Source: Eimeria necatrix
Taxonomy: Eukaryota; Apicomplexa; Conoidasida; Eucoccidiorida; Eimeriidae
NCBI RefSeq assembly: GCF_000499385.1
Contig: NW_013651773.1
Location: 2,260-17,409 of the forward strand
Direction: 5' to 3'
Length of the DNA: 15,150 bases
Shown here: one piece after another, positions 1 through 15,150 of the stretch
Layout of the letters: the number at the start of each line of letters is the position of its first letter
Numbering within the stretch: the stretch's first letter is position 1
Program-made: the position numbers and the translations under genes
Notes under the pieces: generated by a model
The model's input: only the letters and a program-made list of their open reading frames with translations
Databases searched by the model: none
What the model was told of the DNA's origin: nothing

Positions 1-1744
1 AGATTATGCAGTATCGAGTGCCTTAAAGAGCACGATGCGTGTTACAGACAGAATAAGTAATCGCCTGAAACTAGCGTACTAGCTTGCGAGCATTTCGCTT
101 ACCTTAATGTAAGACGTTTACCATTTGTGTAGTAGGAAGCCTCAGTTGAAGTGGGAATTCGGCAGGTCATCGTCAAATTCGTTTTAAAAGAAAAAAATGC
201 AGTTACAAATCCGACACGGTCTACGGCTACGGCCAATGCAAGTAGCTTTTTTCAACTAAATGCCTTTCTTGATCCGTGTGCGGCCATCTGCATGATCAGC
301 GACTAGAATTTACATGAAACGTACGTTCGAATCCGATCAAGGGCAAAGCTAAGAATGTTCTAAGATTGCACAAAATGCACATCACGTAATCGATGCTCAT
401 CTTGTATCCTTTGGTCTCTCTTCGTGCTGCTGCCAAGAATTCAAAGTATCATACCTCATGCACTCAGACACTATGCCTGAAATATGTAACACTCTCGAGA
501 CACGCAGCCTGTCACAACCGCCCACAGGTCCTCTGCAAGAAACACAGCCGACCTAAAGACAACGAGCGAATGAATGCTACTCTTTCACACCTCAGTACTG
601 TTTGGCGCTGGCTTCACCTACAACAGAAATCTGCGACGCGAACCTTCAAACGGCACTTCAATTTTCGAGCAATTCTCTGTGCGGGAAGCTACCATGGTTA
701 CTAAACCAACATTAATAGAGATAGGCGATTTGAACTGCTTGTCCAATACAGTATTCTGAGTTTCCAACAAAAGGCTGACTTGAACATCTGACGCCGCTGC
801 GAATTCAGAGCAACCGCAATGGCGAAATCGCCACTTAACACAAACAACGGCAGCATCGCCGCTACCGTAACGTATTCCCCGCTACTTGCTTATCAACAGG
901 ACGTACTACCTTAACGTACAGCTTCGTACAAACACTTGTTTACGTAGTGCGTTTCACTTCAGCGACCCACAGATAACGCGGCGAACTAATGATCATGCGG
1001 TTCATCAAGCACCACGCTCGTTTGGTCGCCACATAGAATTTTGACGTCCAATAAAAAACGACAACAGGCAGCTCTCCAGACAGTTTGTATGAACGCAAAA
1101 CGAAGTGAGGCGCCTTCCCTGTATCCAGCTACAAGTGCAAGCGCCAGGGTTTCTTACGTTGCGCATGGGTGCGACTGTGATGCCTTTGCAGGCTCTCGAA
1201 ATATTTCGGGCCTTTGAGCAAACGCCAGCTAAGCCGAAAACTGCCCTGTAGCTTGGACGGTGCTCTCTTTGTAGCTCGCTGCATGCATGTTTGAGGAGCT
1301 AAGCGAAATCCATGAGCAAGGTAATTTCGAAAAACGTGAGTGAATCACACGCTTTTGGGACGGCCCCAGTGCTGCAAACCACAACACAGACGTCGACACA
1401 AGGATCGCGTCATTTCGGCCCCAAAATTGATTCCAGGCGCTATGTTTTTCCCAGTTGCCTCCAGCACTTTGCAACAATGGCTGAGCAAATACAACTGCGC
1501 ATCTATTTGACTTCGGCAAGCAAAGCCGTCAATATTCATCGTCAGGCGCTTCAACAAACGTGATGCACAACATAGGAAAGTAGGTCTTCGTCTGAAGCTG
1601 GTGCGCTTCTTCACCATAGTTATGCTCAGAGCAGAGTTGGCAGCACATGCAGCACGTTTAATTGCGTAGCCCAGCCCTATCGAGCAAGATTGCAACGCGG
1701 CGGCCTATATCCCGTGACAGCATATCGGCGTCTCATCATCTTAC
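1..1744. other. No gene found; possible continuation of the array
   Basis: No convincing exon, RNA gene or mobile element is visible. Module spacing would place a C site near 1275-1380. The only candidate there is 1349-1351 (minus CGT, Arg), with a poor acceptor ending AAAAG and donor gtgattc. Weak candidates also fall at 886-888 (CAA, donor gtagcg) and 218-220 (ACC, donor gtgtcg), at roughly the expected B and A distances. None is strong enough to call. Short open frames here show no family features. Confidence 0.4.
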
Positions 1745-1747
1745 TTC
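1745..1747 (-). CDS. Micro-exon A0, codon GAA (Glu where Gly is expected)
   Basis: The acceptor is aaccttgccttttcag and the donor gtaagatgatg, among the best splice sites of the whole array. By spacing it is an A-class (Gly) position, but the triplet is GAA, one base from GGA. It may be an interruption of the helix, the end of the helix, or a mutation. Confidence 0.68.
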
Positions 1748-4700
1748 CTGAAAAGGCAAGGTTTCTAAAGTACTTTTCTTGAGGTCTCTTTTCTCTCAAA
1801 ACTGGGTCAGCCTGTTGCGTACTGTTCAGCAGGCCGGTCGAGGCATGTGATCCACCTTGTAACATCTTGACCCGGCTGCTTTAAATCTTCTTGGTGCCCG
1901 CTAAACAACGACAGAAATAAATATGAGCACATCACAGTCGCAAGCAGCAGGACGCACACATCATCCCGCTGCACAAGAATGTACCCCTATCTCTCGTCGA
2001 GCCCAACTGCATCTCCGTATATCCGCCCATAAAGCACGTGGCTTAAGTGTTTTCCACATTACTGCGTGAAACTCTCAAAAACATTAAAGCGGCTGTCTTG
2101 TAGGTGGCCATGCGTCTGCTCTGCTGTAGGATCAACGAAAATAAAACGGTCACAGTAAAACAACAACTCGTAGCAGCTCGCTGGGTTGAGATAATACGGA
2201 CCAACGGAGATAGGCCGCGCAGCACCTTCCAGTCTGCAAATCACATTAACAGGACTATCGCTAAAATCATGTCTAGGGCCTCTTCAAAAACAGCCGTTGC
2301 GGATATAGATCACAAGATCGCTCAAACCCATCAGCGTTGGACATCGATATTCAAGGTCGTCTCTCTTCACCCACTCTCTGCACTCCGCGAAGAGCATCTT
2401 GTATCTTGGTCAAGCGTATTCCCTTGAAATGATGCCGTAGACTTTTGATTACCATAATTGGGCCATGCCTCAGGAAGGACCCTTAGCGAAACTTTTTAAC
2501 AGTTCGTTAGCCATGTTCTAAATATCAAACATGTGTCTCAACTTCAAGATAAGCCTACTCAGTCGTTTTGATATTTCAGCTTAATTTACTGCACAAATGT
2601 AGGTTTTGGTCTTGCGCTCAAGTCACTCTTAACATGCGATCGAGATATTTTGGGCCAGTCCTGGTGCTATGAAGATGCCTCGTACTGACTGCGCCCACGG
2701 ACGAAAAAGACATCACCCAAGGTGCAGCATGCCCCAACCTATCTATTCACAGGCCAGTATTTATATAGTAGAGAAGGAAACTAACTGGCGCCAGAGGTTT
2801 GTTACTCAGTGATGATTGGGTTTGCAAAAGAACGAAAGCCTCTGCACTGGCAACTGCTGAGATAGGGTCGGGCATCAAAATGTCATGCTGCCTTGCATCT
2901 ACCAACAGTGGAAACTGTACAAGCAAAGGGACAAAATGGCTGTCCTTTACGTGGTATCTACATGCCCCGAATTGTCAAAAGCGAATAACTTGAATGCAGG
3001 CTGATTCTGAGCTCTTAATTCAAACTTTCAAGCGGACTAGTCACCCAACGATAGAACACACTACATACGGGTACATATGGTTGCAATGTCCACAGTTTCC
3101 TAACAAGTCGCCTCCAGCAAAACTCACTCCCTGGAACACCGATCGTTTTCACATTCCAAAAGCAGTATGTGCCGCAGACTTTTGCGAGGCCTTTACGAAA
3201 TGATGCAAAAGGAAGCCAACGTCTCCAATGAATACAGCAGCACGTGCAGAATGATGGTGAATATGCTTTTGATGAATGCTTGTGCAAATACCACGACGGA
3301 GAATATAGGCAATAGGCACTAAGTGAAACAGCAGCCCCCACAGTTTCTTTAAAAACATAATTTCAAGTGAAAGGTATCATAGCCGTAAGGAAACAATTCA
3401 TGCTCAGCATGAGGTCTCCCCGAGAAAACTTTAGCCTGATTGTGCAAAAGTCGATCATTGCTTGGTAGTTCAGCGCATGCACGATTTGTCGCACTTTCAA
3501 TACTAAAGCGGTACTAGAAAAACAAGAAGATTCCCCCGAATATGTATGCTCATAGGAACAGCTAAAGCAGTGTCGACTGGAGCTCTGGTCCAAATTCTGT
3601 AGGATCATAAATGCATCCGCCTCTCTACATACTACCACCACAGCAATACTGTGAACTTGCTAATAGTTCTAAATTCAGACATGAGAACTGAACGGACACT
3701 AAGTGCGGAATCCCCCATAGCCTTAGAACAAGCGAAATTGCATCAAATCCTAAATTCTGCAACATCAGCTATCAATCACTAGCAATGCTTCTTATCACAT
3801 ACAGGCTGCACCAAAAGAAAGAGCGGATCTCTCACGCGCGCCCGTTGCCTTCCAAACGCAGCATATGACTTCAAGCTTTGGCAGCGGTATTTGGGAGTCC
3901 AGCGACTCAGACGATCACCATTTCATGTGAAGAATACACCAAAATACGATTATTTCTCAGCATGCTGCAAAAATTCTTGACAAGAAATATTGAGCGTCAC
4001 CCACTAGTTTCATTGCGCAGCTGTACCGACAACAAAGCTCTGCACGGAAGGCTTTTCCTTAATCGCTTGAACAGGCAATTCAAGTTCACTTAAGCGAGGA
4101 GCTGCAGGATTCCTCACGCCGACATGAGACACATCGAGCAAGCACCATCCCCATCAATCCAACGTCCCTCGAGCGCCCCTTTCTAAGGAAGGAAAAGCAC
4201 AGAACATCCTTCTGCATGCACTCACCAGCTGCGCCCGGAAAATGTGTCGACGTGCAACAGAGCAACGTGATGTAACAGCTGACGATCACAATACCAGCGG
4301 CATGCTCCGATATGAAACGTAAACGCATCTCAGCTTTTTGGTACTACATGCTTTACAAAGTTAAAATAAGCAAAGTGTCGGTCACATGCAGCTGCTGAAC
4401 GTATGGGCAAAAATGCTTCGCCCCTACGGTGACAGCTATTGTGAAGTCAAAGGATGTTGCAAACAACCAGAATGATCGTTATTCTCCACCCATTACAGAA
4501 AACTAACTATCGAAACAGCAGCAGTCTGCGAGCTAGCAAAGGCAGTTCACATGGATGACAGACTACCTCGTCCGTGAAGCAAAAACACCATAGCGTTTAC
4601 GGCACCGGGTAATAGTGAACACAAAACAACGCAATTGGTCAGTATCGCGCAGCGACACTAACCAATTGTGTGTACTGACCTCGACTTCCTAGATGCTTAC

Positions 4701-7700
4701 TCCCTGGATATAAATCTTCCAGTTACGACCTATATACATGTCTTGTTTGTGCTGATTGCTACCTAGACCTTCCATAGTAATTGCGAAAGCAGGACAGCAA
4801 CATGAGAAGCCCCTCAATTTATGTAAGGCGCCGCTGAATATGCTCTTAGCCTCGAAGACAAACACGAAAAGGAGTTCATACACCTAAACAGCGGGATGCA
4901 AGCATCATCTCCCTAAAATGATACAAGCTGCCGCCCCAGTTCAGCCAGCGTATAGGTTGCCCGGTTCACAGGCTTGGTGGTGATAGTTCCACAATGCTTG
5001 ACCATTTAAGCACTTGCCTATCATCGCCCTGGCACCTGGGCAAGCGCGCCATTTTGCACAACCAAAATGATGAGGAAAAAGAGCAAAGTGGCAAATTTCC
5101 AACAAGTGAAGAGACATGGAAGTGTAAAGCGAGCATGCAGCATTGCGCCGCCCTGCATGTAATACTAGCAAGAACTTAGTTACCCTAGTTTATCCACTTT
5201 GCTGATCGCATTTATTCCACACGTGAAAGCTAAGCAGGTTTCCATTCCGTTTGTCGTAGCTTTTACTGCACAAACAAAACCGCGTAAGGTGCGGAGGCCA
5301 ACTACCGTAGCCACCAAAAGTCACCACCATTGTTTCACGTACTGGCTGAACGCCACATGAAGCTTAATAAACATGTACCAAATACGCGTTCCTTTTCTTA
5401 TGAGCAGCTAATTGTCAACACCGCTTTTTGTTGAAATTTGTGCATCGAAGTAGCTGATCGGCATCTCGCCAGGGCAAAATGCATCGGACGCCAGGCAAGG
5501 AGTGACGCCGCCAAAATTCGTACGTTAGATAACAGGATAACAGAAGGTATCAGCGTTAATATTCAGCACGTTTTGTTCGTTAAAAGCATGTTCTCCATAT
5601 ACTATACACCACGTTAAACAGGAGCATTACGTGTGACCACCCTAGTCCACGTACAACGTACAAATACCTTAAACGAAAAAGGCATATTTAGCACAGCTGA
5701 CAACGTTGGAGTTAGGTGCTATTATGTGTTACTCTGAAGCAACAAAAGCGAAAATTCACAGCATGTGGGCTCACGGGCTGCACAAAAGCAATGCAATACT
5801 GTCCAAAAGCCCAGCGCGTCAAGTCCGCTGACATCTGCTCAGGAAGCGGCGCGTTTGACCTGAAGATGACTGGAAACGATTTGCTGTTGTTTCGGTACTA
5901 GTAGTCTGCTGCATCAAGAAGGCAAGCATCTGTCGCATGCAACTGGAAAGATCATTACCATCCCCATAAAGTTGTCGATACCTACGATCCCTGAAAAGCA
6001 GGAAACAAAATGATTGTGTTTCTCCTATCCAAAGCAGCATCCAATTTAAGCAGAACAGCTTTTGTTCCGACAGAGAGCGTCAGTGCATCGCCGCACCCCC
6101 CGTAGTTGTTTGGGGCCTCAACATGGCTGCAACGTACTCCCTGGGGAAACAACCCTCCATTATTACGTAACTTAAATCGAAGCTCGTCTCCAGTGCTGCT
6201 GAGGCAATATCGATGCAGTCGCGCGAGCAGAGATGATATGCAGAAATCTTCGCAAAATGTTCAAGAGGTCGCTGAAGGTGCATGAGCTCATGCAAACGTG
6301 CAAACACTGCGTGCACGAAAGCAGTGCTATCATAGTGCACAGACACCCAATTCTCATACTGCTGCAGAAAATGAACGGCACAAACTCAATTGAAGCAGCA
6401 CATGCTTTCCCAAACCACAAAGTGTTGACACATTCAAAAAAGTGTCCAAGTGAGCTGTCTAGAACCTCCCAGGCCGTTTGACCAAATGCTCTCTTTTGCC
6501 TCGAAAGTAGGCGAATGCGTGTCATTTTGCGCAACAAGAGCAGATGTGTACACCCTAATAAAAATGGAAAGCACCAGCACTCAGTTCTGCCTGAAAGATC
6601 TGGATGAATAGAGGGCGCGCGCAACACCCGCCGCTCCACACACTGCGCCGACGAAAATGTCGCCACTACGACCTCTTCACATTGCCTGTAAAATCTACAC
6701 AGGGAAGATACAAAAACATGCTTTTGTGCTTAATTCACTCAAAGCAAATACAATTATATCAGGCGATTTTCGGCAGCGTGTGTCGTAACGTACTGGCTGA
6801 ACGCCACAAGAAACGTGATAGGTCGAAGTGGTCGGAAGCATTTTCGTCAATGAGTCGTAACTGCTTTGAATATAATATCAAAAAGACAAACTCCCTCTGC
6901 GTCGTGTGATAGAGCCAAGCACTCCATGTTTAACGTTTACCGACTACGTTTGTAGCGAGACGTCGCATACCTCTCTTGCTGAATGTTTCCTGCTACTAAA
7001 AGACAGCAGGAGGAGGAAACATTCAGCAGGAAACCGCACTAGAGTTTTAACCTAGGAAATACCTTGAAAGCTGGGCTCGACTTAAAAGCCACTACAAACA
7101 TACAGCGAGCGTTTTCCAAATGTTTCCCAGTCAGTTGCTGCTCTGAAAGCACTGTCACAAAAATTTATACTGCATGTACGCACAGGCTTCGGATATATAT
7201 TGCAATATCCTTCATAGGCACTGCATGTCGCAGTCGCTAAGGACTATACAACAAGTAGCATGCATCGCATTGCAAAGGCGGCTGAAGTAGAGCTAGTCCT
7301 TCAGTACTTAGTGCTGTTTGCTGCTTTTAGAGAACAATGATGTGAGCATAATGTGTATTTAAATAGTGTATTATGAGGAAAATGGAAAGTAACAAGACAG
7401 AAATTCTACCAATGATTTGTCAACCTCAGCAACCTAGCTTGAAAAGATGCCGTCGTGTAGGTCAGATGTCGTTGCGTATGCAACACAACTATCAGGCACA
7501 TTCAATCCCCCCATGGCCATACGCTCAATAATGCTTTGACACCTTACAATTAGTGCAACTTACTCCCTGGTAAGTCTCTGCTGTTTACATGAAATGCATT
7601 CCTCTGAAGTGCCGGCCATTATTTTTTTGAAGCAACCGCTATAGGGGGAGAACAATAAAGCAAATCTCGCAACATGCGCATTAAGCCCATGACCATTAAT

Positions 7701-10700
7701 GGTTTTGATGCCTTAACGAACCTTGACACTAAAGGGTGCAAAGATTCCGCCGATTAGAACAACGAATTTCGTTTCCACACTTAAGTACAAGCGGATGGAA
7801 CCTAAATTCTTCGTGGACGTGCATAGATTCATTTGAACTCTGCATGGATGCTGCGGCCAGCAAACGCCTTGGCGAGACTTCCAGCACCCTGTACGCCTTT
7901 TGAGGAGCAGTTTATCCTTACCTCATATTGAGTGCAAAAGTCATTTACATTCATTTCTAATGTGAATGGGAAGATGCTAACAATACTGGAAAATTCTAGA
8001 AGCTGCGTGAACAAAAGAAGCACGCAATCCACACAACCATGCACGCCAACGTGACGAGAATATCACCCCACCAATGTCACACCTTGCAAATAGCAGTAAT
8101 CCCGAACCGATAAATAAACATCGTTTAATCCGCCATTCTTCAGCAAACAATCAGCCAACATGTTTAGAGGAAGTCGAAAATTTTACAGCTTCAACTATCA
8201 GGAATATTCGGTGTTTTCACATACAATCTGCATGCCACATGAGTGCGTGGACAACTTAAACAGCCACACATATTTTCCAAGGCGGAATACCCCAAATGTG
8301 GAGATCGGAGGTGAAGGGCAACGTCCCAGCCAAAGATGCTTTTTATACAACGCAAAAGGGAAAGACGTGATGTATGAAACAATGGGTTTCGCACCCACAC
8401 CCATGTGCCGGAGAGCAAGAAAACATGTAACACTTTTCTTACCTTAAAAACCAATAATGCCATTAGTACAAGCTATACTGTCCATGGAATGGGAGCTTCT
8501 ATTTGTGTGGAAAACATATGAGTTCGACCCAAAGCATAATTGTACAACCCAGGACTTCCATAGCGAAGACACAGTGTATTGCTCTGCACGGGAGCATCGA
8601 ACTGCATGCACTCACGGGCTGCACAGAAATAAAGCGACGTTGTCCGCAACAAAGACGTTTCAGAGCTGCTTACAGGCGCACAGCAAGAATCATGGTTTGC
8701 CAGGAGACGGCCGCCGTGGACATCCTTGTTTTTTGGTGTGCATTACTGTCGTATTCTTCAAAGCTACACTAGACCTATTCCGCGCAGTTCCGCAGAGCAC
8801 AGAAACACCATACTTAAAAGCAATGTTCATCTTTAAACCATAGGATATTATGTAACCCAAGCTGTTAATATTCAGGCCAGATGTTATTCCCCGTAGAATG
8901 CGAATATTAGAGGGATTCAAGCACTCTTCAATATCAAGCAATAATGCAGGACACTGGCACCCATTACATCTAGGCATTCCACTTCTATTGGGCCTTACCC
9001 CCTGGAAATGTGAGGGTCAAACAAATATACGTGCACTGCATGATCGTGTCGGTATCCGGCTAGCTCCTAGATAACAATTGCGCAGACACGAAATGACCCA
9101 TGAAAGATGCTTCAGAAGGTGTTGAGTAAGTTCTTGATGCTTGCAAATGGACTCCGCCGAATGTAGCCTAAATGCGCGTTAACAATTGACTACAAGCAAA
9201 GATGCCAACATTTCATTTGCTCAACATCGCGCTATCACTCGGCACAAATATTCCTCCCAGTACATATAGAAATGACAGAAAGGCATAAATTCAAATGCCT
9301 CTGCCGGGATTGTAGCAAGCACAATGTGACGGGTAGGTTCACCAGTATTCTAAAGTGGAGACTGGGAGGGGTTTTCTGTACGTTGTAAGATGTTTATCTG
9401 AGAGTCCACCATTGATTCATAATGTGCTGTATTGCAATTTCAACGCAATTGAAACGGACTCAACAACAGAGCCCAAAGCACCAACTTCGCGAGCCGAAAT
9501 AACGTGTGCGAAAGAGAAACGCACGGAGCATCTGGTGAACCGCACAACACGCTGGCAAGAGTATTGCAAGAAACGATATCCGCCTTGGTATCGGCAGTTA
9601 GTCCGATGCGTCAAATGGATGGATATTCAGTTGAGAGTTTACGCAAACTATGAAAAGCAAAGTCCCGCCAGTCCAAAATCTTTCCCAGCTTCAACAACCA
9701 ATAACTAAAATAGTGTCCCCACACTTACTGGCTTTAAAGGTTCCGCATTTTTTTTCCAAAAAGATCAGAACCTCTCATGAACCGCAAAACGACACGCTGT
9801 ACAAACCCCAAAAAAGCCAGACGTCCAATATTTCACTAGGCCTGCAATGAATAGGTGCGAAACATGTAATTTCCTGCCGATCACAAGCCTCTTGATAGTT
9901 ACATGATAACATGTAGCTACCACGCATGTAACTCATGAGAAAAAGCCACTTAAAAGATCAAACACATACCCTCATCTGCCGAAACATGTCTCATAACAAC
10001 TTCCAAAACGCCATTCGCTGAATCTATGAAACAGTTGTAGAAATCGACAACTATTGCGGCACATCATGCACACAGCTACTACCGCTGAAGCGTGTTCAAA
10101 TCGTTCTCCCCCACAAACCGCGTGACAAAAACGCTGCACTACGGCTACTCACTCTCTGCAGAGAAATGACGTAACGTGACACAGCGGCTGAAGGCTACAC
10201 AGCAAGCAGCATGCTGCGTTTTGAGACGGCAAGCGGATGCATTCTGGTCCTCTGGCATGCTTTTTAGAACGTCAATAAAGCCTTTATTTGGTCACACGCA
10301 ACTGCTGAGTGTTTTGGCAAGGGCGTGTTTCGTTTGCTTCGGTAGTTATTATATCGGTAAATAAAAATCGAAAACCGAATTCCTCCTATTCGCTCATCCA
10401 CCGCAGGCCACTTATTAAGAAATTAGCCCAGACGCTTCGTTATTCACTTTTCCCTTGCTGATCGGTAGCTCGCAAAAGCAGTTGAGGCAGACGGATTGGC
10501 GGATGTAAGATCCGATGCAGAGCCGCCACATTTAGCACCACAGGGCACTTACCCCCTGATAAAAAGAGCCTCCAACTGTCGATACATGTTCAGGCTTCAT
10601 TGCTGCGCGTCGACTAACAGGGGTCTGAGTGGTGTCTTTAGCACGCTGCTGGCGCATTGAATTCAGTTCGATTGCTGCCTTATTGCTATGAATGCGTGTA

Positions 10701-12892
10701 AATGTCCGCAATTCTAATAAAATGGGATAACCACAGCAAAATCGCATCACACAGCCAGATACGTTAAAGAAGCCCCAACGATGGGAGCAATGCGACACTC
10801 GCCGCCCTGCAGTTGGCGCTGACAGGGCTACTGCCATGCTAACCTCAACTTTGCTGAGTGCAGTAGCAGTGGGCCTGTCAAATGCACGGGCATCTATTTC
10901 GTAGCTTTTAGCATCTGCACAAGAGAAAACCGCGAAGTGCAGCATGCCCTAGTGTCTGAACTATCAATACTCAAAAATCATGTGTGTTCACATACTGGCT
11001 GCAAGCCTCGAAGAGTGGACATCCCACACAAATGCGCTGCCTTTGGGCAAACACATCGAAGGACTTTAACCTGAATCAACTCGGTGCGTGCAGCGACAGG
11101 CATTTACCAAGATAGATGACTGATGTTCAACTTACTAAGCAACAAGCCTGTACACTAGAAGCACCCTCTGAACAGGTTGCTTTCAGTTCTAGTGCGCAAT
11201 TTTCTCCAAAATTCGGAATTCAATCCTGCAGTAGTCGCACGTATAGAAAAGCCTGTTTGGCTTCGCCCGAAAAGAGACTCTGTGAGCTCTGTGTGGCACG
11301 CAGGATACCAAAGTTAAAAACGCAGCTGCCATTTTACAGTTGCTGTATCATTTAACCTACTTCACGTACTGCAGAGGACAACACGATCCGCCGGACGTCC
11401 TGCACTCACGGGCTTCACAGAAACATTGTGCCGTAATCTGGAACTACGACACGGTATATCCGTTGAAGGTTACAAACCTAGAAGCAAGCTTTCCCCGGAG
11501 AGAAAAAGCAATCAGATAGCGCCTGCCACCACCCACATATCTATTGTCGTTTTAAGAAAATATTTCGTCAGAACCCTCTAGGATTTTTTCTATTGAACAA
11601 TAATTCAAGAAAGCACAGATCCGCCTCAACCAATTGCACAGAGAACAGTGAGTATGAAACATCAATTTTTTTTCGAAAGCTATTGGGGAGGGACAAGAAG
11701 TAAGCAAAGACACACATTACCTCATTCGCGTGTCCATTGAAGCATCCCTATCGTCAAATGCGTGGCGATGCAGACGGGGAGTGCCGTCGTGCAAGCAACT
11801 CAAACCTTATACGAATTCAGCGAGCCAGTAGTATTAAACAGCAGTGCATCGATGGGACCACCACCAGTACACAAAACATCAAGTTCGCTGAATCATACTC
11901 CCTGTAGAAGCAGCGCTTCTAAAATAATTACTTATGAGGTACGGTCGTCTAAAAACGAGGTCTGTGCATCTGTAAAGCAAAAGCGAAGAAAGCTAGGGCA
12001 TGAAATAAACCAGACAGCGTGCGGACCAGCCCACCAAAGGTAGTCTTCATGTCTATTGACAGAAAACGTGCGAAGGCGCAATTAGTTCATCCGCACTAAA
12101 GCGGCCTTCTCACCACAATGATACCCATCTGTCTTTATAGCAAATACAGGAGAGCACCTTAACAAAAACTGCGTACGCTGAGAGCGCTGCCCAGGCACTG
12201 CACGGCTTTTGCTGTGAACAAAAATCCAGATGAGGAGTGTGAACCGTGAACTTTCCCCACGCCCAGTGAACGTCTGCCCTCAATTGCCCTGCTGCTGGAC
12301 GACTACTCGCCTAATATCACGCCATGTTTATACACAGAGAACAACGAAGCATCGAACTAAAAATGATTTGATACGTCTGCAAAATCTCGGTGCGCGCTGG
12401 CCGGTTGAGCGCAACAACGTAAGTATTGCCCTGCTAGCTTTTCCAGTTCCGCTATAGCAGTTACTCCCGGCGAGGCAATTGAATTTACTTCTATGCTTTC
12501 ACATACACACAAAAGAAAACTGCCAAGTGATGTGACAGTCCCTACCACCTCAGCTATTATTCTTCACCATTTGCATTCACATACTTGCTGCACGTCAGGA
12601 CACGTTAGCGACCATTCCATGCTAATGCATCTTTTTGGTACCGGTACGGATACTTAAGCACACGGTCAGAAGACGCACAATGAAAACTTTTATCAAAGAC
12701 AATATTCCAGGTCCAACTGCTGCAGCAGGTCAAGCCTGCTAAAGCCCTCAACAGACTGCTCAAAAGATACATGACAATCTTTAGCTGCAGGCCGTGAAGG
12801 CTTTTGTGCAACAGTTCTTTCTGCTATAAGCAATACCGCTAGATGACTATGCACGCACAACCGCGGAACGCCGCACAGCGTGTACCTACCAG
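1745..12892 (-). CDS. Collagen-like triple-helix gene (partial) built from 24 single-codon exons
   Basis: Seen: on the minus strand, 24 composite sites of the form acceptor AG, three bases, donor GT occur at regular spacing. Joined in order, the triplets read LQG PPG RPG PIG, then PPG PPG LPG SRE. All junctions are phase 0. Gly is invariant at seven consecutive third positions, and X and Y are Pro, Leu, Arg, Ser, Gln and Ile, as in collagens. Introns run from about 302 to 727 bases, so only 72 of 11,148 bases are coding. Family knowledge: fibrillar collagen helix exons are usually 54 bp or other multiples of 9 and start with a Gly codon. Exons of one codon in a long run are not something I know to be described. 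Inferred: an extracellular or cuticular collagen-like protein that forms a triple helix. Both ends lie outside the window. The low-coordinate end has Glu where Gly is expected. No other coding potential is convincing in the introns. A non-coding repeat is the alternative, but it would not explain the strict Gly register. Confidence 0.83.
2375..2377 (-). CDS. Micro-exon B0, codon AGA (Arg, Y position)
   Basis: The acceptor is ctcttcgcggagtgcag and the donor gtgggtgaag. The donor is one step from the B-class gtatgtgaa form. Spacing to A0 is 630, as in other modules. Arg is frequent at Y. Confidence 0.65.
2686..2688 (-). CDS. Micro-exon C0, codon TCA (Ser, X position)
   Basis: The acceptor is ctttttcgtccgtgggcgcag and the donor gtacgaggc. 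Placement fits, 442 from A1 and 311 from B0. A rival at 2782-2784 (TTA) has a poor donor, gtttcc. Confidence 0.62.
3128..3130 (-). CDS. Micro-exon A1, codon GGA (Gly)
   Basis: The acceptor is acgatcggtgttccag and the donor gtgagttttg. This is the last of the seven in-register Gly codons in reading order. Confidence 0.78.
3803..3805 (-). CDS. Micro-exon B1, codon CCT (Pro, Y position)
   Basis: The acceptor is ctctttcttttggtgcag, a strong pyrimidine tract, and the donor gtatgtgataag. Spacing to A1 is 675. Confidence 0.83.
4226..4228 (-). CDS. Micro-exon C1, codon CTG (Leu, X position)
   Basis: The acceptor is acacattttccgggcgcag and the donor gtgagtgcatgcag, identical over 14 bases to C4. Gly-Leu-Pro is a very common collagen triplet. 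Confidence 0.82.
4632..4680. repeat. Nested inverted repeats in an intron
   Basis: caattggt at 4632-4639 pairs with accaattg at 4661-4668, and ggtcagta nearby pairs with tactgacc at 4673-4680. The two pairings overlap and are mutually exclusive in part. They lie about 20 bases into the intron that begins at the A2 donor. No function is evident. Confidence 0.45.
4701..4703 (-). CDS. Micro-exon A2, codon GGA (Gly)
   Basis: The acceptor is ggaagatttatatccag and the donor gtaagcatc. A-class core kept. Spacing to C1 is 475. Confidence 0.8.
5343..5345 (-). CDS. Micro-exon B2, codon CCA (Pro, Y position)
   Basis: The acceptor is gcttcatgtggcgttcag and the donor gtacgtgaaac. A tandem AG after CCA could give codon TAC with a weaker donor; CCA fits the Gly-X-Y register and is preferred. 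Confidence 0.8.
5775..5777 (-). CDS. Micro-exon C2, codon CCC (Pro, X position)
   Basis: The acceptor is gcattgcttttgtgcag and the donor gtgagcccac. The flanks match C4 and C7. Spacing to B2 is 432. Confidence 0.82.
6138..6140 (-). CDS. Micro-exon A3, codon GGA (Gly)
   Basis: The acceptor is gagggttgtttccccag and the donor gtacgttgc. Good pyrimidine tract. Spacing to C2 is 363. Confidence 0.82.
6794..6796 (-). CDS. Micro-exon B3, codon CCA (Pro, Y position)
   Basis: The acceptor is cacgtttcttgtggcgttcag and the donor gtacgttacg. The core and nearby intron match B2 closely (shared plus-strand tggctgaacgccaca), pointing to a relatively recent duplication of these two modules. Confidence 0.8.
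6978..7030. repeat. Short imperfect inverted repeat (hairpin) in an intron
   Basis: The left arm gctgaatgtttcctgct (6978-6994) pairs with the right arm at 7005-7028, which carries an extra six-base bulge (aggagg region). The loop is about 10 bases. It sits in the intron between C3 and B3. It is short for a microRNA precursor and no mobile element features flank it. Confidence 0.6.
7184..7186 (-). CDS. Micro-exon C3, codon CCT (Pro, X position)
   Basis: The acceptor aatatatatccgaag ends AAG and is weak. The donor gtgcgtacatgcag resembles the C-class form gtgagtgcatgcag. Placement fits the module, 390 from B3 and 380 from A4. This is one of the least certain exons by splice strength. Confidence 0.65.
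7564..7566 (-). CDS. Micro-exon A4, codon GGA (Gly)
   Basis: The acceptor is acagcagagacttaccag, with a modest pyrimidine tract, and the donor gtaagttgc is near consensus. Spacing to C3 is 380. Confidence 0.8.
8225..8227 (-). CDS. Micro-exon B4, codon ATT (Ile, Y position)
   Basis: The acceptor is cactcatgtggcatgcag and the donor gtatgtgaaaac. The B-class flanks are well kept while the codon itself differs from the usual CCA. The site is therefore conserved independently of the triplet. Ile is less usual at Y but allowed. Confidence 0.75.
8616..8618 (-). CDS. Micro-exon C4, codon CCC (Pro, X position)
   Basis: The acceptor is gtcgctttatttctgtgcag and the donor gtgagtgcatgcag. The first 14 intron bases are identical to those of C1, which supports common origin of the C-class sites. 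Confidence 0.83.
8999..9001 (-). CDS. Micro-exon A5, codon GGG (Gly)
   Basis: The acceptor is gaccctcacatttccag and the donor gtaaggccc. A clear pyrimidine tract precedes CAG, followed by GGG and a good donor. The next exon is C4, 383 bases away. Confidence 0.85.
9729..9731 (-). CDS. Micro-exon B5, codon CCA (Pro, Y position)
   Basis: The donor gtaagtgtgg is strong. The acceptor gcggaacctttaaag ends AAG and has a weak pyrimidine tract, making it one of the poorest acceptors of the set. A tandem AG after CCA would give the stop triplet TAA with donor gtgtgg, which is rejected. The spacing to A5 is 730, the longest of its class. Confidence 0.68.
10153..10155 (-). CDS. Micro-exon C5, codon AGA (Arg, X position)
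   Basis: The acceptor is cgtcatttctctgcag and the donor gtgagtag. The spacing to A6 (400) and B5 (424) matches other modules. Arg here gives the triplet Gly-Arg-Pro, an allowed collagen triplet. Confidence 0.78.
10553..10555 (-). CDS. Micro-exon A6, codon GGG (Gly)
   Basis: The acceptor is gaggctctttttatcag, a strong pyrimidine tract, and the donor gtaagtgccc is near consensus. This is one of the two clearest sites in the array. The overlapping 137-codon minus-strand open frame (10532-10945) runs through both splice sites and has no family features. Confidence 0.85.
10996..10998 (-). CDS. Micro-exon B6, codon CCA (Pro, Y position)
   Basis: The acceptor is ctcttcgaggcttgcag and the donor gtatgtgaacac. 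A second AG directly after CCA creates a tandem acceptor. Using it would give codon TAT with a weaker donor, so CCA is preferred. Confidence 0.8.
11410..11412 (-). CDS. Micro-exon C6, codon CCC (Pro, X position)
   Basis: The acceptor is gcacaatgtttctgtgaag, ending AAG rather than CAG. The donor is gtgagtgcagg, the C-class form shared with C1 and C4. A rival site at 11366-11368 (TAC) lies only 41 bases away, too close for both to be used with a normal intron between them. Confidence 0.75.
11899..11901 (-). CDS. Micro-exon A7, codon GGA (Gly)
   Basis: The acceptor is agcgctgcttctacag and the donor gtatgattc. It has the A-class core CAG, GGA, GT. The next exon on the minus strand is C6, 489 bases away. 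Confidence 0.78.
12585..12587 (-). CDS. Micro-exon B7, codon CAA (Gln, Y position)
   Basis: The acceptor is gtcctgacgtgcag and the donor gtatgtgaatgc, the typical B-class donor. Gln is common at the Y position of collagens. It lies 686 bases upstream of the Gly exon at 11899. Confidence 0.75.
12890..12892 (-). CDS. Micro-exon C7, codon CTG (Leu, X position)
   Basis: The acceptor is cactgcttttgtgcag and the donor gtaggtac. The acceptor closely matches that of C2 (ttgcttttgtgcag). This is the most upstream convincing exon in the window, 305 bases from B7. The Gly codon that should precede it is not found up to the right edge. Confidence 0.75.
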
Positions 12893-13476: not shown

Positions 13477-13588
13477 TCATACCTGTGCCGAGCTAGTGCC
13501 GGCGAGGCATACGAGGAGAACCTGCGAAAGAAGACTCCGAAGACTGCAATTGTCCGTGAATTCCGAGTTCCCGGAACTATGAGAATAT

Positions 13589-13616: not shown

Positions 13617-14833
13617 CGTTTTGGGGCTATTGAGTTTTAGCGCTACTTGGTGGCTCGGACTGCGCTTCCTTACCGAGACATATACCATGCGAAGAGTTCA
13701 AGATGGCGAATTAGATGCAAATATATGATTTGCCGCGGCGTCGCCAACTACTGCATTGGCGCGCACAAGTGCTATTCAAGAGTATCAGCCGTCTGTATTT
13801 TCATGAAGTCCGACGACGCGGTTATAGGCAGTGCCAAATTGCGTTTTGTGTGTCCCGCATGGGTTACTGACATGTTCATGGAGCGCTTCCAGGTGCCAAG
13901 AAACATGTAAAACCTAACAAGCAGATCGTCGCAGTATGAAGCAACCTCGCACACGAATCAATGCGCCACCATGAGTACCAAAGCCTGCGGAAAACAGAAC
14001 GCGACGAGGAACAGCATGACAGGGCTCTCGGCACAAGCGAAGCAGCCCACGACGTGAGCTAGTAACGTGTGGACCGCGGAACATCGACCGCAATTACTGC
14101 GACGAGAAACCAAGAGCAGCAGGGCGGGCTTTCCACGCACGTCCTGGGTTCACCAAAGCGCATGACAGGCGACACTGAACGGATACAACATGCGTACAAC
14201 ACTGGCTGGGGCGCCGACGTCCACCGACGAATTCAAGCAGTGTTCTTTGTCACGATGCAAGCAAGGTATCTCGGAAAGCAACTAAAAGGGATGCACGAAA
14301 CGACCAACCTGATCCAGATTTCTCAGTGCGCTGCAGTTGCTTCCACTAATTGGAATATTTGCCGTTCCGTCAGGCATAGCTCCGAGCACCTGCAAGTAAC
14401 TTTGCAGCACCAAAGAAAGCTTCGGCGTTATTTCGCAGTGCTGCTTCCGACACGAGACACTGCCAAGCTACGTCAGCAGAGCAAGACGTCTGTTTCCTGC
14501 ATTCCGTAAAAGCGTGTTTCGTCGAGTGAAAAGGGAGACACTTTTTCCTTGAAAGCGACGACACCTCGGACGTGGGCGTAGTCTGCATACGTTACTGCAC
14601 GTTTCCAGCACACAGCAACGTCGACAGTTGCGCACGAAGAAAGCGTGGATCCACGCAGCACGTACAAACCGTAAATATGCGTGACTGAGCACTTCTTGGC
14701 AACACTGTGGCGCGGCACTGAATTTCCGTCTGTCCAAATGCCTAATCATGCATTGAAGACAAAAAATGCCCGCCTCCCGAAAACGGTGAGCCGTTATTTT
14801 CTCAGCGCTTTCTGTAGAGCTACATAAAAACAG

Positions 14834-14974: not shown

Positions 14975-15044
14975 CTTATCTGCAAAATAGCATATGTAAA
15001 GTAGATATGTCTGTGAATATCCTAAGATTCAGGCTGGCGAAAAC

Positions 15045-15062
15045 GCCCGCACCGGTGCGGGC
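15045..15062. repeat. Perfect 18-bp GC-rich palindrome
   Basis: gcccgcaccggtgcgggc is its own reverse complement. The sequence after it is noticeably more GC-rich than the intron DNA to the left. This may mark the edge of a different element that continues beyond the window. Confidence 0.6.
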
Positions 15063-15150
15063 CACCAACCCACAGGGCCGCCAAGGAAGCAAGAACCCTG
15101 AGTGGGGAGCTTCCAAGGAAAATCGATTTCAGAACTTGGGAAGATGACTG

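Follow-up and report, generated by a model that had tools for sequence, protein, structure and literature searches.

Putative one-codon exons in a collagen-like gene family of the coccidian Eimeria necatrix

A stretch of 15,150 nucleotides of the Eimeria necatrix genome (assembly GCF_000499385.1, contig NW_013651773.1, positions 2,260 to 17,409 of the forward strand; hereafter the window) carries on its minus strand an array of sites at which an acceptor AG and a donor GT enclose a single triplet. A model that read the letters alone had proposed that 24 such triplets are exons in their own right and together encode a collagen helix (the original prediction). A scan of the window finds all 24 AG-NNN-GT sites on the minus strand, between 12892 and 1747, with the triplets that had been named. 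Translated in order, they begin with CTG Leu (12890-12892) and CAA Gln (12585-12587) at the X and Y positions of a Gly-X-Y repeat, followed by GGA Gly (11899-11901), CCC Pro (X, 11410-11412) and CCA Pro (Y, 10996-10998), GGG Gly (10553-10555), AGA Arg (X, 10153-10155) and CCA Pro (Y, 9729-9731, with the weakest acceptor context of the array), GGG Gly (8999-9001), CCC Pro (X, 8616-8618) and ATT Ile (Y, 8225-8227). The array continues with GGA Gly (7564-7566), CCT Pro (X, 7184-7186) and CCA Pro (Y, 6794-6796), GGA Gly (6138-6140), CCC Pro (X, 5775-5777) and CCA Pro (Y, 5343-5345), GGA Gly (4701-4703), CTG Leu (X, 4226-4228) and CCT Pro (Y, 3803-3805), GGA Gly (3128-3130), TCA Ser (X, 2686-2688) and AGA Arg (Y, 2375-2377), and ends with GAA Glu (1745-1747) at a Gly position. 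Both the seven Gly codons in register (11901, 10555, 9001, 7566, 6140, 4703 and 3130) and the Pro-rich X and Y residues (Pro at 10 of the 16 codons) are thus as first described, and the introns measure 302-727 bases, the same range as before. The window holds 27 open reading frames of at least 80 codons, the longest of 164 codons, and no match to known RNA families.

The minus strand of the window contains 86 AG-NNN-GT sites, the 24 included, and a selection made among them by eye proves little; the array was therefore tested without use of the triplets. A donor filter, AGNNNGTRNG, retains 30 sense-strand sites, which include the full array of 24, and four antisense ones; 300 dinucleotide-preserving shuffles give a mean of 7.4 (sd 2.8, maximum 17). 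When the filtered sites are chained in Gly-X-Y register with a spacing of 250-760 bases, the longest chain comprises 23 sites, as against at most four in the shuffles and two on the other strand; related contigs of the same assembly give chains of 15 (C337), 14 (C224) and, in a further paralog, 6. A matrix built from the flanks only, trained on the 16 later sites of the window and 15 sites of C337, places seven of the eight remaining, earlier sites at ranks 1-7 of 27 candidates, and the eighth, 9731, in a tie for ranks 10-11. No stop codon occurs among the 24 triplets, compared with six among the other 62 AG-NNN-GT sites. The array is real and lies far beyond chance. Although 86 sites were available and 24 were selected, the notion that any pattern could have been drawn from them has a vanishing probability: the filter alone brings the number down to 30, 24 of which are those of the original prediction, and the shuffle tests, the flank-matrix ranking and the conservation between paralogs described below rule out chance selection.

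The search for paralogs covered the species' own assembly (44.0 Mb, 1148 contigs) and finds them on at least seven other contigs. C337, C224 and C173 match the window at about 80% identity over up to 7 kb, C759 and C593 match more weakly, and C1070 and C328 are 79% identical to the 5' half of the window, while another part of C328 matches at 81% over the region of the likely signal-peptide exons. For 16 of the 24 sites an aligned counterpart exists in one or more of the contigs C337, C224 and C173, which gives 36 comparisons (16, 14 and 6). All 36 preserve the AG, the GT and the exact three-base length, as against 41 of 81 comparisons at the other AG-NNN-GT sites; counted per site, AG and GT are kept in every copy at 16 of 16 array sites and at 14 of 35 others (Fisher p = 2e-5). 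Intron positions -3 to -1, +1 to +3 and +5 are identical in 36/36 comparisons and +6 in 35/36. The three exon bases, by contrast with these signals, are identical at 0.72, 0.58 and 0.89, set against 0.825 overall. Pattern searches of the contigs for X-type sites and for the second class of one-codon site described below return two and six places, respectively (control 0 in each case). One of the X-type sites found in this way, C328:7747-7773, has the codon GTC.

The variation of the codons follows their position in the repeat. The five Gly sites have GGN in 10 of 10 paralog comparisons: GGG at 9001 in C337, GGA at 7566, 6140 and 4703 in C337 and C224, and GGA at 3130 in all three paralogs. The X and Y codons change from copy to copy: CCC at 8618 is CTC in C337; ATT at 8227 is AAT in C337 and C224; the paralogs have TCT and ACT for CCT at 7186, GAA and GAT for CCA at 6796, and CCT and CTT for CCC at 5777; and all three have CCG for CTG at 4228 and CCA for TCA at 2688, with CCA, CCA and CCG for AGA at 2377. 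CCA at 5345 (C337 and C224) and CCT at 3805 (three paralogs) are shared. Among the non-Gly exon bases (X, Y and second-class), 12 of 33 differ between the window and C337, where introns differ at 0.187 (Fisher p = 0.014), and 13 of 30 between the window and C224 (introns 0.185, p = 0.0016); the rate of difference in X and Y codons is thus roughly double that of nearby introns, and replacement changes outnumber silent ones by 8:1 and 8:0 in the two pairs. The excess has the same direction in four other pairs and is significant in C224-C173 (p = 0.019) and window-C173 (p = 0.009). Since relaxed constraint alone would not exceed the change in introns, it is likely, judging from these substitutions, that X and Y diversify under a fixed Gly frame.

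The intron lengths fall into classes by phase, with 383±47 bases between X and Y, 637±80 between Y and Gly and 416±46 between Gly and X. Flanks of sites in the same phase are more similar (0.410) than those in different phases (0.285), a difference that none of 20,000 label shuffles reaches, and old similarity between introns is seen directly at multiples of about 1.4 kb. The simplest reading of this periodicity is that the array would have grown through successive duplications of a Gly-X-Y unit that comprises three exons and measures about 1.4 kb. Within the array, some 110 bases of the window (6881-6996) are inverted relative to C224 and C337, and a near-perfect inverted repeat, noted by eye around 6970-7030, adjoins this stretch.

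Upstream of the array, ATG GTA TAT GTC TCG (MVYVS) at 13674-13688 on the minus strand is followed by a donor, GTAAGG, and 152 bases on by a 39-nt exon at 13483-13521 (VLLVCLAGTSSAQ; acceptor TCTTTCGCAG, ending in CAG, and donor GTATGA) that would contain the end of a signal peptide. Together these likely exons 1 and 2 encode MVYVSVLLVCLAGTSSAQ, in phase with the first one-codon exon, and a signal peptide in two exons (13688-13483) is likely. At a lowered threshold the search finds the start at 13688 plus one alternative first exon with a start at 14163, also on the minus strand; at this threshold 0 of 200 shuffles gives a candidate as hydrophobic as the real one. An additional Gly exon ahead of the Leu at 12892 was sought and rejected, as no strong site lies between that Leu and the signal exon. 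Two copies of a sequence, at 14982-14743 and 13485-13244, are 80.6% identical and 1.5 kb apart; the second begins directly behind the likely signal-peptide exon, the first directly behind a dispersed repeat at the edge of the window.

Downstream of the array lies a repeat unit of about 1.25 kb (354-1642, minus strand), copies of which stand in tandem in C173, C224 and C337. Each unit carries a candidate one-codon exon of a second class, in the window GTA Val at 907-909, for which the three paralogs have GAT, TTT and GAG at the same place. AG-NNN-GT is kept at 20 of 20 homologous places without a stop, and the codons read E T Y Q C G G R K Y in C173, F T F G in C224, V in the window and D T F G G in C337. 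In the 13 of these 20 units that were aligned, AG-NNN-GT is the sole AG..GT pair kept in all, so that this region would add one residue per 1.25 kb; larger exons in the units were rejected on the same count, and candidates of 9 and 7 bases near 622-638 and 526-532 of the window are inconsistent between copies. At its far end C173 has a second series resembling Gly-X-Y (L067, C173:19500-25346), with GGA at 21825, CCT at 22257, GGG at 23441, CCT at 23885, CCA at 24329, GGA at 24534 and CCT at 24940, and with shorter introns before some of the Gly sites. The starts of C933 and C1074 are 96% and 94% identical to this end of C173. In the window's own contig the first 2259 bases are N, and the 3' side beyond the window is therefore not visible. 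The region delimited by the original prediction stands as far as the array itself is concerned; the gene appears to extend beyond it, to the likely signal peptide upstream, to the second-class exons downstream and, as a family, to the paralog contigs.

Animal collagens, type I for example, consist of Pro-rich Gly-X-Y repeats, and the exons of their helices typically measure 54 bp or another multiple of 9. The product predicted here shares the Pro-rich Gly-X-Y pattern and is presumably secreted as well, with Gly at every third residue, seven times in register and then broken by the Glu at 1747; the difference from the fibrillar collagens of animals lies in exons of 3 nt, with Gly, X and Y each on its own. 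The 42-residue spliced product matches no Pfam family but Collagen (18.6 bits, E 0.0016; the model has 60 positions), and the array would give the peptides LQGPPGRPGPIG and PPGPPGLPGSRE. A scan of the whole genome with the Pfam Collagen model returns 116 matches, and the same model also matches in three of 14 control genomes. These do not amount to ordinary collagen genes elsewhere in the genome: many overlap in several frames and on both strands, and the five that were inspected are GGGGCCCC-type repeats and are not counted as collagen. A collagen helix is, to our knowledge, unexpected in a coccidian, and a role of the product in the oocyst wall or at the surface is a guess. Literature searches found no description of an apicomplexan collagen; in an excerpt of a Besnoitia paper, the collagen mentioned is that of the host only (PMC9714946).

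Taken together, the window and its relatives very probably represent a collagen-like gene family built of one codon per exon, in which splicing would link 24 one-codon exons to a likely signal peptide and yield a secreted Gly-X-Y chain. That each triplet is its own exon, as had been proposed, gains support from the three-base length and splice signals kept in 36/36 comparisons, from Gly codons that persist while X and Y change, and from intron lengths that form classes by phase. The donors are strong on the intron side (GTRNGT), and most acceptors end in CAG. Scores for donors and acceptors trained on the one-codon exons also pick the GTAAGT donors and CAG acceptors of ordinary surface-antigen genes in this genome, with boundaries set by eye, which makes it likely that the ordinary spliceosome acts on the array via intron definition. 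Introns would then be removed, probably sequentially from the 5' end, each step adding one codon and exposing the next donor. Since the donor signal is intronic (+1 to +3, +5 and +6), the codon is free to change. The downstream segments may have grown in a similar way, through duplications of a unit of about 1.25 kb with a single exon. A Gly held constant beside X and Y residues that change faster than introns is what might be seen in a secreted rod with a surface that varies from one paralog to the next. A wider reading, which we consider reasonably probable, is that of a variable secreted protein stored as single-codon cassettes: each residue of the mature chain, in the helix and beyond, would have its own exon on its own duplicable unit of 0.4-1.3 kb, each unit having constant splice signals and a hypervariable codon, so that the protein could be lengthened and diversified residue by residue through duplication of DNA units.

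Several observations weigh against the codon-per-exon model. In leave-one-out scoring 17 of the 24 sites beat all 62 other AG-NNN-GT sites and seven do not; AAG stands in place of CAG at the acceptors of 9731, 11412 and 7186; and the last site, 1747, is GAA (Glu) at a Gly position, where GGA (Gly) in 3/3 paralogs indicates that the Gly register continues. C759 has a chain of only three sites, with eight sense sites against ten antisense. The excess of codon change is not significant in C337-C224 (p = 0.2) and C337-C173 (p = 0.14), and the three paralogs are mutually close (intron difference 4-10%), so that neither the 36 comparisons nor the codon changes can be counted as independent, and few independent events lie behind them. 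The first, stricter threshold finds no signal-peptide candidate in the real sequence and some candidate in 8 of 200 shuffles, a number that rises to 43 of 200 at the lowered threshold. The Collagen match of the spliced product lies below the Pfam cut-off of 27.2 bits. The second series of C173 has no clear Y exon between 22257 and 23441, and neither a C-terminal exon nor a stop codon turned up before the contigs ended.

Splice sites that are real could nevertheless flank triplets that do not code, the array being a set of stepping stones within long introns, akin to recursive splicing, or a set of short non-coding exons. Recursive sites are known to serve the stepwise removal of long introns, and, as at such sites, acceptor and donor nearly touch here inside a long intronic stretch; conservation, moreover, is strongest in the splice signals and weaker in the triplets. 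Recursive sites, however, are AG|GT with nothing between and leave no exon, whereas the array keeps exactly three bases in each of the 36 comparisons, with Gly fixed at every third exon, no stop among the triplets and a likely signal-peptide exon just upstream in the same phase, and we regard this explanation as unlikely. The supposition that the family was formerly spliced in this manner and is decaying, the window copy now being a pseudogene, would account for the change of Gly to Glu at 1747, the weak acceptors at 9731, 11412 and 7186 and the mere three consecutive sites kept in C759. It is a little less likely again: at about 18% divergence the array has lost no AG or GT in 36 comparisons, as against 40 losses in 81 at other sites, and this absence of loss calls for selection on most copies.

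Collagen being typical of animals, the contig might also be a strange animal collagen gene that entered the assembly as a contaminant, and the window, unlike many Eimeria contigs, has no (CAG)4 run. This origin is very improbable. The edge of the window (14976-15150) is a 175-base repeat with matches on at least 21 further contigs, among them C939, which has dense CAG runs (24 in the 3.1 kb of locus L023), and there is one CAG run in each of C337, C224 and C173. This argument draws on few contigs, as six of the eight other loci have no CAG run besides one in L056, and none of them is decisive. The GC content of the window, 46.3%, fits the 47.1% given for Eimeria falciformis introns in an excerpt of PMC4287421.

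The closest known kind to the codon-per-exon gene proposed here appears to be the micro-exon genes (MEGs) of schistosomes. In Schistosoma mansoni, according to excerpts of two papers, these encode secreted proteins with an N-terminal signal peptide through tiny exons, multiples of three in length, set in long introns, and three MEGs are reported to have dN/dS above 1, with fast change of the mature part (PMC10526429; PMC4350168). Symmetric micro-exons in long introns, a predicted signal peptide and fast change also characterize the Eimeria array. The lengths stated for MEG exons are 6-81 bp in the text and 3-81 in the abstract, mostly 15 bp (PMC10526429, in excerpt), whereas all exons found after the signal peptide in Eimeria, a member of another phylum, are 3 nt and fall into two repeat classes; nor are MEGs collagen-like, the word being absent from the excerpted text of PMC10526429. 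Isolated 3-bp exons, such as micro-exon 8 of Drosophila homothorax and those of troponin T and NCAM, are mentioned in an excerpt of PMC7392893; they share with the array a single codon that serves as an exon between normal splice sites, but they stand alone and are often alternative, while the array has 24 in a row. Literature searches found no description of a run of consecutive 3-nt exons. What may be new here, on the strength of the genomic sequence, is the one-to-one match of exon and codon throughout the mature chain as far as it is visible, which may also be seen as the extreme of micro-exon genes.

If the model is true, the gene stands at the lower limit of exon size dozens of times consecutively and would test how the spliceosome handles exons too short for exon definition. 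It would mean that splice signals can sit entirely within the intron, leaving the codon free, and that a class of genes is invisible to ORF-based and most spliced-alignment tools. It would also place a collagen-like protein within Apicomplexa and suggest a new route to diversity for the secreted proteins of parasites.

Other features of the assembly concern its general character. CAG and AAACCCT repeats are present in the genome loci inspected, and the copies of the dispersed 175-base repeat at 14976-15150 are 73-89% identical to it on the at least 21 other contigs. The TA4 surface antigens of Eimeria (PF11054) account for 131 exon matches in the genome (best E 1.7e-61) and for none in the 14 control genomes, and large arrays of TA4-type genes lie on C38, C26, C79 and other contigs (L061-L064).

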